This document shows positions 2,178-56,879 of a stretch of DNA of 64,000 nucleotides, piece after piece. The notes beneath the pieces were generated by a model. The model was not told the origin of the DNA. It made no database searches and saw only the letters and a list, made by a program, of their open reading frames with translations. Source of the stretch: Bacteroides sp. (GTDB taxonomy: Bacteria; Bacteroidota; Bacteroidia; Bacteroidales; Muribaculaceae). Made by a program: the position numbers and the translations under genes. The stretch's first letter is position 1. Each line of letters opens with the position of its first letter. The DNA lies in NCBI GenBank assembly GCA_014802325.1, contig JAAVCK010000005.1, positions 124,001-188,000 of the forward strand, in the 5' to 3' direction.

Positions 2178-2217
2178 TATTACCAAAAAGTGTAGAATTC
2201 TACAGATTTTAGTAATA
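2178..2217. repeat. 40-bp palindromic repeat, copy 1
   Basis: An imperfect palindrome centred on GAATTC (2195-2200): outer arms TATTACCAAAA and TTTTAGTAATA, inner perfect arms TGTAGAA/TTCTACA, two unpaired bases between on each side. It is identical to copy 2 over all 40 bp and lies 146 bp before it. No gene sits between copies 1 and 2. Confidence 0.85.
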
Positions 2218-2292
2218 GATTGACTTATAAGAATACCATCCGAACAATATACGAAAGGGCACACACGTTCGTAAACCATTTTATACTACAAT

Positions 2293-2323
2293 TTTGACAT
2301 ACCGAAAATATAAATTATCTTTG
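2293..2323 (+). promoter_or_regulatory. Promoter of the AAA ATPase gene
   Basis: TTTG (2293-2296), 19-bp spacer, TATCTTTG (2316-2323). The predicted start of transcription, about 6 nt further on, lies inside palindrome copy 2, so nearly the whole leader would be palindrome. Confidence 0.65.
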
Positions 2324-2363
2324 TATTACCAAAAAGTGTAGAATTCTACAGATTTTAGTAATA
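2324..2363. repeat. 40-bp palindromic repeat, copy 2 (overlaps the start codon)
   Basis: Same sequence as copy 1, centred at 2343/2344. Its last base (2363) is the A of the ATPase ATG. Confidence 0.85.
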
Positions 2364-3619
2364 TGATTATTCCACGACCAACTTACCTCAATCAACTGAT
2401 CAAAGCGCAGGGCAACCGCATGATAAAGATTATCACCGGGATACGCCGTTGCGGGAAGTCTTTTCTTTTGTTTGATCTATTCCATAATTATCTCAGGTCA
2501 ACAGGAGTTAACGAGGCTCACATCATAGAAATTGCACTTGACGACAGAGCGAATATCGAATACCGCGATCCTGACAGAATACTTGCCTATATAAAGGAGC
2601 GCATTACCGATACGGAGCGATATTTTGTACTCATTGATGAAGTTCATATGATAAGAGACTTTGTAGAGGTGCTTAATAGCTTACTTCATATCAGCGACCT
2701 GGATATATATGTCACGGGGAGCAATTCACGCTTTCTTTCCAAAGATATAGTCACTGAATTCAGAGGACGCGGTCAGGATATACATATGTACCCGCTCTCA
2801 TTCTACGAGTATTATAATGCCGGAGGAGGTGATCGCTCGTTGCGCTGGAGGGAGTATTCAACCTACGGCGGATTACCTCAGATATTGTCATTGCCCGATG
2901 ATAAGATGAAACGTGACTATCTTATTCACCTTGCCGATACGGTGTATTTACAGGATGTCGTGGAACGCAACCATATCAGAAACAAACCGGAACTCGATGA
3001 ATTATTAAAGATTCTCGCTTCCTCCATCGGCTCTCCATGTAATCCCACCAAGTTATCAAATACTTTCAAGAGCGTAAAGAAAGTTACAATCAGCAACAAA
3101 ACCGTATCGAAATATCTGGAATACCTTTGTGATGCGTTTTTAGTGGAAAAGTCGCTACGATATGACATCAAAGGAAAAAAGTACATAAACACCTTATCCA
3201 AATATTATTTTACCGATGTTGGTATTCGAAACGCGGTGCTCGGTTTCCGTCAACTTGAGCCTACACATCTGATGGAAAACCTTATCTATAATGAATTGCT
3301 TTACCGAGGGTTTTCGGTCGATGTCGGGGTTGTCAGCTCGATTGATAAAAATGAATCCGGGAAATCTGTAAGGAGGGAATTTGAAGTTGACTTCGTAGCC
3401 AATGATGCCTATACCAAATACTACATCCAGTCAGCATACTCAATTCCTGATCATGACAAGATGATTCAGGAAACAAACTCATTCCGCAGGATAGACGATT
3501 CTTTTCATCGTATAATTATTGTCAGGGATGATGTCATGCCTCACCGAAATGATGACGGCATATTGATCATAGGCCTTTTTGACTTTATGTTAAAACCCGA
3601 AATCCTCAAGGAGGTATGA
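2363..3619 (+). CDS. AAA+ ATPase with DUF4143 domain, palindrome-bounded
   Basis: A 418-residue protein of the solitary ATPase/DUF4143 type. Walker A is GIRRCGKS (residues 26-33), Walker B is FVLIDEV (about 88-94), and a sensor-like TGSNSRFLS follows near 117. Towards the C-terminus the pattern EVDFVAN...YIQ resembles the PD-(D/E)XK-like fold of DUF4143, with glutamine where an active nuclease would have a Glu-Lys pair. Function is unknown for most members. Composition is clearly less GC-rich than the flanking housekeeping genes. The gene fits exactly between two palindromes: the start codon shares a base with copy 2, and copy 3 begins 5 bp after the stop. This suggests that gene plus palindromes form one unit inserted between the SufT-like gene and polA. 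Confidence 0.85.
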   Translation: MIIPRPTYLNQLIKAQGNRMIKIITGIRRCGKSFLLFDLFHNYLRSTGVNEAHIIEIALDDRANIEYRDPDRILAYIKERITDTERYFVLIDEVHMIRDFVEVLNSLLHISDLDIYVTGSNSRFLSKDIVTEFRGRGQDIHMYPLSFYEYYNAGGGDRSLRWREYSTYGGLPQILSLPDDKMKRDYLIHLADTVYLQDVVERNHIRNKPELDELLKILASSIGSPCNPTKLSNTFKSVKKVTISNKTVSKYLEYLCDAFLVEKSLRYDIKGKKYINTLSKYYFTDVGIRNAVLGFRQLEPTHLMENLIYNELLYRGFSVDVGVVSSIDKNESGKSVRREFEVDFVANDAYTKYYIQSAYSIPDHDKMIQETNSFRRIDDSFHRIIIVRDDVMPHRNDDGILIIGLFDFMLKPEILKEV

Positions 3620-3624
3620 TGTCC

Positions 3625-3664
3625 TATTACCAAAAAGTGTAGAATTCTACAGATTTTGGTAATA
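3625..3664. repeat. 40-bp palindromic repeat, copy 3
   Basis: Centred on GAATTC at 3642-3647. It differs from copies 1 and 2 by one base in the right arm (TTTTGGTAATA), which makes the outer arms pair fully. It lies between the ATPase stop and the 3' end of polA and could also act as a transcription terminator. Confidence 0.85.
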
Positions 3665-55724: not shown

Positions 55725-56879
55725 ATGATTCATCGTTTTATTCTCAATGAAGTATCTTACTTCGGCCCGGGATCACGCAAGGAACTCCCCGAAGTGCTCG
55801 GCCGTCTCGGCAAATCTAAAGCTCTTATCGTGACCGATAAAGACCTGGTGCGTTTCGGCGTGGCTGCTAAAGTGACCGAAGTTCTTGATAATGCCGGTTT
55901 CCCCTACGAGATTTTCTCGGATGTTAAGCCCAATCCCACCGTCACCAACGTGCTCGACGGTATAGAAGCTTTCAAAAAGGCTCAGGCCGACGTGCTCATT
56001 GCCATAGGCGGTGGCTCGTCGATGGATACGGCCAAGGCCGTGGGCATCGTGATAGCCAACCCCGAGTTTTCTGACATCGTATCACTCGAAGGCTGCGCTC
56101 CTACCCGCAACAAGAGCGTGCCCATGATAGCCCTGCCCACTACCGCCGGCACTGCCGCCGAGACCACTATCAACTATGTGATCATCGACGAGGAGAAACA
56201 TAAGAAGATGGTGTGTGTTGACCCCAACGACATCCCTGCCGTGGCTATCATCGACGCCGAACTCATGTATACCCTCCCCCGCAGCCTCACCGCAGCTACC
56301 GGTATGGATGCGCTCACTCACGCTATCGAAGGCTACATCACCCGCGGAGCTTGGGCTATGAGCGATATGATGGAGATCGAGGCCATCCGCATGATAGCCC
56401 GTCATCTCCCCGTAGCCGTAGAGCATCCTGACAACGTGGAGGCCCGCGAAGGCATGGCTCTGGCTCAGTATATAGCAGGTATGGCTTTCTCAAATGTAGG
56501 TCTCGGTCTCGTACACGGTATGGCTCACCCGATGGGCTCGCTCCACGATGTGCCTCACGGTGTAGCCAACGCTCTGCTGCTCCCCACCATCATGGAATTT
56601 AACCGCGAGTCGAGCCTCGACAAATACCGCTCGATAGCCGAAGCTATGGGTGTGGACACCTCCCGCATGAGCCGTGAGGAAGCAGCTATGGCTGCCGTAA
56701 AGGCTGTGCGCGACCTCGCTATAAAGGTTGGCATACCCCAGCACCTCACCGACCTCGGCATAACGGCTGACGACATACCCGCTCTCGCCGCTCAGGCTTT
56801 CGAGGACGTATGTACTCCGGGCAATCCCCGCGACGTGACACTCGAAGAAATTGTAGAACTCTACAATAAGGTTCTCTAA
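55725..56879 (+). CDS. Iron-containing (group III) alcohol dehydrogenase
   Basis: A 384-residue enzyme of the Fe-ADH family, NAD(P)H-linked. The nucleotide site is GGGSSMDTAKAVG (about 95-107). The metal ligands lie in GMDALTHAIEGY (Asp and His, about 195-206) and in LVHGMAHPMGSLHDVPHG (two His, about 263-280). Substrates in the family range from butanol and ethanol to lactaldehyde and propanediol; this cannot be settled here. A heptamer repeat tract lies directly upstream of its promoter region. Confidence 0.92.
   Translation: MIHRFILNEVSYFGPGSRKELPEVLGRLGKSKALIVTDKDLVRFGVAAKVTEVLDNAGFPYEIFSDVKPNPTVTNVLDGIEAFKKAQADVLIAIGGGSSMDTAKAVGIVIANPEFSDIVSLEGCAPTRNKSVPMIALPTTAGTAAETTINYVIIDEEKHKKMVCVDPNDIPAVAIIDAELMYTLPRSLTAATGMDALTHAIEGYITRGAWAMSDMMEIEAIRMIARHLPVAVEHPDNVEAREGMALAQYIAGMAFSNVGLGLVHGMAHPMGSLHDVPHGVANALLLPTIMEFNRESSLDKYRSIAEAMGVDTSRMSREEAAMAAVKAVRDLAIKVGIPQHLTDLGITADDIPALAAQAFEDVCTPGNPRDVTLEEIVELYNKVL

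Follow-up and report, generated by a model that had tools for sequence, protein, structure and literature searches.

A solitary ATPase gene of a Bacteroides sp., a member of the candidate defence family PDC-S01, lies between direct copies of a 40-bp palindrome, and about half of the related genes tested are accompanied by different palindromes of their own. We consider it probable that the PDC-S01 ATPase represses its own gene through these private palindromic operators, which would double as boundaries for deletion and transfer of the gene. The evidence comes from the window (the whole stretch of 64,000 nucleotides that was analysed), from paralogues in the same genome, and from relatives in the genus and beyond. 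The locus contains the following features:

2178-2217, + strand: palindrome copy 1, distal upstream, 146 bp start-to-start from copy 2
2218-2323, + strand: 106-bp spacer with the presumed promoter (from sequence; relatives show a matching layout)
2324-2363, + strand: palindrome copy 2, proximal, the presumed operator, reaching from the promoter box as far as the A of the ATG
2363-3619, + strand: AAA_14-DUF4143 ATPase gene, 418 aa, PADLOC family PDC-S01 (Pfam, PADLOC, AlphaFold2 model)
3625-3664, + strand: palindrome copy 3, downstream, direct orientation, separated from the stop codon by 5 bp

The first-pass annotation of this DNA, made from the letters alone, had described the gene as boxed in by three copies of one palindrome that was noticed nowhere else in the window, and as less GC-rich than its neighbours. 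These descriptions were borne out. Copies 1 and 2 are identical over 40 bp, copy 3 differs at one base, and all three have the same orientation. Copies 1 and 2 are separated by 106 bp, the last base of copy 2 is the A of the ATG at 2363, and copy 3 follows the stop codon after 5 bp. The assembly comprises 27 contigs (2.34 Mb, completeness 91), and exact matches to the core, TGTAGAATTCTACA, were found in it at these three sites only, with one further core carrying a single mismatch at window position 56852; the chance expectation for the window palindrome, from 100 dinucleotide shuffles, was a mean of 0 matches. GC content is 41% in the ATPase gene versus 58% in the neighbouring gene that we take to be polA, 48% in the SufT-like gene (a name backed by NCBIfam matches below cut-off) and 53% in the window. 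In addition, TATCTTTG at 2316-2323 directly abuts copy 2. It fits the Bacteroidota -7 consensus TAnnTTTG, and TTTG at 2293-2296 is a possible -33 element.

The window genome contains seven DUF4143 matches, one of them in a broken frame; the six intact genes, including that of the window, each have different repeats beside them. Palindromic repeats accompany L001, and three tandem repeats spaced by 33 bp lie just upstream of both L002 (L002:2688-2773) and L003 (L003:677-775). L005 is flanked on both sides by a 113-bp repeat, and L006 has three repeats 40 bp apart. A homologue is present in 18 of the 27 genomes of the genus, including the window genome; a single Bacteroidales genome, G399, has 29 DUF4143 matches. 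Eight of the 30 genus loci (L021, L024, L025, L029 and L038-L041), which were fragments or more distant, were kept out of the gene set, and further relatives were represented by 80 loci kept of at least 586 found in a search of genome contigs.

Many of these relatives have palindromes built of a 12-bp arm, a centre of about 16 bp and a second 12-bp arm, with centres that differ among genes. A palindrome scoring at least 10 within -150 to +10 of the start was present in 52 of 100 genes and absent in 48, compared with 13% of 315 other ORFs at those loci and 4% among 500 shuffles; the count took 100 of 102 genes, two with less than 120 bp upstream being left out. Because the loci share descent, significance tests on such counts overstate independence. 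One record was entered twice, as L015 and L076, and both entries were counted in the start-palindrome, flank-repeat and mismatch tests; L015 was dropped from the second-copy and promoter-box counts, and neither entry is among the 13 flank-repeat genes described below. In a broader family set (L211 had no ORF and L236 was not entered), repeats scored at least 12 in 18 of 32 genes versus 2.3% of 128 shuffles, but 6 of 15 control ORFs did likewise. For this reason only the repeat period of 31-33 bp was used from this set; it was seen in 10 of the 32 genes, two of which score only 11.

TGTAGA-N2-TCTACA, the class of the window palindrome, occurred in 10 of 397 genomes and its reversed control in none. 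The TGTGACAAGGCACA class was found in 6 of 397 genomes (control, 0), four times with a gene and twice with remnants, and a looser pattern with a free centre matched 18 of 149 genomes versus 2 of 149 for the control. The first-pass annotation had held that palindromes lying mostly away from such genes would refute its idea of a gene-palindrome unit. On this point the result was mixed, as the ten window-class genomes comprise six with the palindrome beside an intact gene, one with it beside a 5′ remnant and three in which it stands alone.

Position relative to the promoter is one argument for an operator. In 42 of 60 genes an exact TAnnTTTG (21 genes) or TATAAT (21 genes) box, the -7 and -10 promoter consensus sequences, directly adjoins the proximal palindrome on its outer side; 18 genes have no exact box, and among control windows placed 40-160 bp further upstream the count was 5 of 240. 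At its other end, the proximal palindrome finishes near the start codon in relatives. A clear second upstream copy (at least 23 of 36 matches) was detected in 27 of the 72 genes with a proximal palindrome, versus a mean of 2.7 and a maximum of 5 when palindromes were swapped; the remaining 45 genes have no clear second copy. Distances are concentrated, 18 of the 27 second copies lying at -78 to -72 and the other nine at 63 to 150 bp, and the mean second-copy profile peaks at -75 (14.46 vs 10.97, sd 0.68). At the window locus the spacing is 146 bp and not 75; it is about twice 73. Judged from sequence, this layout is as expected of paired operators around a promoter. By position only, the proximal palindrome is a candidate operator overlapping the promoter or start of its own gene, as in autoregulated repressors, and it is from this position that we infer autorepression.

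Palindromes at these places might instead act in RNA, as hairpins at transcript ends that control stability or translation. The proximal copy starts at the promoter box and should thus be mostly transcribed, and the 3′ copy sits just past the stop codon, both of which would suit such a role. However, mismatched arm pairs in 61 palindromes comprised 34 GT and 44 AC, and this lack of a G.U excess favours a DNA site over an RNA hairpin. The second upstream copy, moreover, is located beyond the promoter, and lone copies persist without the gene. An RNA role therefore appears very improbable.

Features of the protein are consistent with self-repression at a DNA site. Both Pfam domains of the window protein, AAA_14 (E 5.4e-32) and DUF4143 (E 1.6e-19), score above cut-off, and it matches PADLOC model PDLC04787 (E 4.9e-117), which assigns it to the PDC-S01 family models; all five scanned paralogues also match PDC-S01 models. 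An AlphaFold2 model (pLDDT 92.6, pTM 0.91) contains helices and strands compatible with a winged helix at about residues 208-283, and among the closest solved structures are archaeal ATPase_2 proteins and DNA-bound Orc1/Cdc6. Identity to the archaeal ATPases PAB2304 (2qen) and SSO1545 (2fna) is 16-17%, and the alignment to them ends at about residue 294, ahead of the nuclease-fold domain. Archaeal Orc1/Cdc6 initiators (2qby, 2v1u) mark replication origins, whereas no sign of an origin was seen at the window locus. With the predicted winged helix, the abutment of the palindrome on the promoter box and the private nature of the palindromes, recognition of the palindrome by the ATPase is plausible. 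In a test of covariation between protein and palindrome, residues 205-275 contributed 9 of the 30 top-ranking columns versus 5.7 expected, a weak signal that we regard as only suggestive.

The C-terminal domain has the PD-(D/E)XK nuclease fold, which also occurs in Holliday-junction resolvases. The canonical D...(D/E)xK residues are incomplete in the window subfamily, in which EVDF is kept and the second motif reads IQSA or IQVA; where McrC, Can2/Card1 and Hjc nucleases have (D/E)xK, this subfamily reads QSA. Paralogues L001, L002, L003 and L005 keep E(I/V)K at the second motif, and a migrated lysine, K366, could conceivably take over in the window protein.

In the parts of PMC12988326 that concern it, PDC-S01 is described as an ATPase fused to the PD-(D/E)XK superfamily and is ranked fourth by frequency among the defences of prokaryotes as a whole, most candidates of this kind still awaiting validation as defence. 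A rumen survey gives PDC-S01 as the individual locus found most often (PMC13356809). The same parts of PMC12988326 do not mention DNA repeats; the present analysis adds private operators, their 75-bp pairing and the palindrome scars. We found no account of such palindromes in what we examined of the open-licence PMC literature on DUF4143, COG1373 or PDC-S01.

Comparison of orthologous sites suggested that the palindromes also bound the gene. The first-pass annotation had proposed a comparison of empty sites between polA and the SufT-like gene, and among the 27 genomes of the genus this junction holds the gene in G000, the window genome, and one palindrome without a gene in G020 and G021. No palindrome was present in the 15 other junctions inspected (13-89 bp); of the remaining genomes, four have a longer junction (726-1077 bp) and five had no SufT match in the stretch retrieved. 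Among the 27 genomes the exact core is limited to G000, G020 and G021, with 3, 1 and 1 copies, and so does not multiply. A second such locus adjoins genes that we take to be queD/queE. In G020 the gene is present, its sequence divided between contigs C37 and C101; three palindromes precede it and one follows it. In G021 a single palindrome marks the joint, the upstream spacer and a second palindrome remain, and the third is missing; a search of this G021 contig for DUF4143 homologues found none. At a third locus, presumably topA-like, G000 and G020 carry an L005-type gene at the same site (87% identical, 473 aa) with repeats on both sides, and G021 has one repeat and no gene match. Flank identity is 92.6% between G020 and G021 versus 86.8% and 87.3% for the other pairs, implying that G020 and G021 are sisters. 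Parsimony on these sequences thus favours loss as the simplest account of the absence at the topA-like locus. At all three loci, each with a different repeat, the gene is absent from G021 and one repeat is left at the joint.

The lone palindromes at the polA-SufT junction are better conserved than their surroundings: palindrome and flank matches are 40/40 vs 86/141 between window and G021, 38/40 vs 98/138 between G020 and G021, and 38/40 vs 110/140 between window and G020. Palindromes that outlast their flanks without the gene speak against pure scars, unless the loss was recent. Of 18 pattern loci checked for a gene, eight had a match and ten did not, and three of these ten (L151, L157 and L159) were then found to hold remnants. 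Altogether, remnants of the gene lie at the palindrome in 4 of 13 lone-palindrome loci: 13 codons in L151, 25 codons followed by the C-terminal end (by eye) in L157, the gene start fused to the last 14 residues in L159, and 19 residues at 68% in L172. Other weak remnant matches were rejected as spurious, the best of them (L170, E 6.7e-4) being distant from the palindrome, and L165 and L168 were discarded by eye as chance matches. L154, L162, L166 and L167 are lone sites without a gene match. All three lone TGTAGA palindromes adjoin a SufT-like gene, in two genera. Palindromes of this class at L155, at L180 and at window 2178-2217 lie upstream of a SufT-like gene, one of them seemingly decayed. 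In genus g28 (five genomes, four with a sufT match) one genome has a lone palindrome upstream of the SufT-like gene, one sister species has a seemingly decayed copy at the matching place, and two species have none.

Repeats common to the 350 bp before and the 350 bp after the gene, at a score of at least 16, were detected in 13 of 97 genes and in 0 of 194 cross-locus pairs, and all 13 pairs are direct. In seven (window, L020, L144, L073, L079, L139 and L092) they are palindrome copies at, overlapping or close behind the stop; in the other six they are repeats other than the palindrome. Since palindrome copies precede the gene, and in some cases also follow it, as direct repeats, it is bounded by short homologies. 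The flank repeats of L020 and L081 were considered as proof of insertion by duplication of host flank and set aside; that of L020 is not relied on because most of it is dispersed. This hairpin-bearing repeat matches 27 times in G019, and all 27 genus genomes contain one match or more.

These data might also be explained by an ordinary autorepressed accessory gene whose flanking copies and losses reflect incidental recombination between short repeats, with no selected role. Short direct repeats can recombine unaided, the 3′ palindrome copy is absent in 90 of 97 genes, and remnants with internal deletions exist. However, 3′ copies recur in seven genes with different palindromes, a both-sided repeat occurs in another subfamily too (L005), and lone palindromes are conserved beyond their flanks. 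We consider this explanation unlikely.

One pair points to transfer as a unit. L084 (Butyrivibrio sp.) and L098 (Lachnospiraceae bacterium) are 98.0% identical along a 1,327-bp segment that begins 3 bp outside the palindrome and ends 12 bp past the stop codon; beyond the palindrome copies nothing else is common to them in about 4 kb on either side. As the common segment in L098 stops at the palindrome, its promoter is not common with L084. An AbiEi-like gene (below the Pfam cut-off) and a Fic gene lie between the distal and proximal palindromes of L098 (L098:1741-3983). In one Phocaeicola massiliensis strain, the match between two plasmid records is confined to -55 to stop, at 77%. Homologues were found in plasmid records (242) and phage records (18), and COG1373 figures among the transferred genes listed in PMC10782964. 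A 2,630-bp circular plasmid of Prevotella nigrescens with the gene (L207, NZ_CP133466.1) was considered as an excision circle and rejected, no palindrome being present at its joint. It is a segment of another strain's large replicon (L208:4658-7288), in which a PDC-S01 gene lies along with a TaqI-like specificity domain, and the first 30 bp at its joint recur inside the neighbouring N-6 methylase gene near an Mpi-family invertase. The circle is probably a product of restriction-modification gene shuffling.

A stronger interpretation is that palindrome, gene and palindrome form an element that is truly mobile or homing, in which the ATPase/nuclease-fold protein would insert its gene at palindromic targets. 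Such an element would fit the repeat-to-repeat presence and absence at three loci, the unrelated flanks of L084 and L098, the lone window-class palindromes next to SufT-like genes in two genera and a C-terminal fold that includes Holliday-junction resolvases. Remnants L157 (its 3′ end by eye) and L159 keep both gene ends and recall internally deleted transposons. However, domain matches between the palindromes of the window are limited to AAA_14, DUF4143 and a weak ATPase_2, with no transposase or recombinase gene, and the second catalytic motif in the window subfamily is QSA or QVA instead of (D/E)xK. The three copies are direct and do not form inverted terminal repeats, and the empty-site alignment contains no target-site duplication beyond the palindrome. 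Homing insertion destroys its site, whereas here the palindromes are intact on both sides of the gene. Absence at the topA-like locus is a loss by parsimony, genes on plasmids, phage records and the restriction-modification island could have travelled with those carriers, and the 3, 1 and 1 core copies argue against multiplication. In RAYT/REP systems, too, a gene is flanked by palindromes, but RAYTs are Y1 transposases and REPs occur in many copies; here the gene encodes an ATPase, no Y1 (HUH) transposase domain was found in the Pfam search, and genomes have 1-3 core copies. A true mobile element is therefore unlikely. The first-pass annotation had suggested a unit that moves or is maintained together. 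This idea held in that gene and palindromes are absent together, leaving one repeat, at three loci; autonomous movement was not supported, considering the lack of a transposase or recombinase gene, the loss at the topA-like locus and the remnants at 4 of 13 lone loci.

Self-repression through private, boundary-forming operators could work as follows. A solitary, horizontally spread ATPase with AAA+, winged-helix and PD-(D/E)XK-fold parts would bind its own private 40-bp palindromes. The operator would run from the -7/-10 promoter box towards the start codon, and with a second upstream copy usually about 75 bp (about 7 helical turns) away, the bound protein could clamp or loop the promoter. The gene would then be shut off by its own product until a signal, conceivably a phage-related one, releases the promoter, and different palindromes would insulate paralogues from each other within one cell. 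Clean deletion between direct repeats would leave one palindrome, and the palindrome-gene segment could be exchanged as a unit. A partial parallel is RptR, a defence-island repressor that is reported to repress its own promoter by binding to three direct repeats, with a palindromic minimal site (PMC12255303). RptR is a small dedicated regulator, whereas at the window locus the regulator would be the ATPase itself.

It is possible, if doubtful, that PDC-S01 is best viewed as a single-gene cassette, in which one private palindrome serves as operator and swap boundary and a resolvase-like domain perhaps reads the palindrome as a junction. The link of this family to defence islands would then partly reflect cassette movement and loss, and not defence as such. 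For PDC-S01 proteins in general, private palindromes would point to a candidate DNA target of each protein, make an autorepression circuit open to testing and offer a reason why the genes turn over rapidly. They suggest that the substrate or sensor of the protein is a DNA site adjoining its own gene, and lone palindromes may mark places from which the gene was formerly lost.
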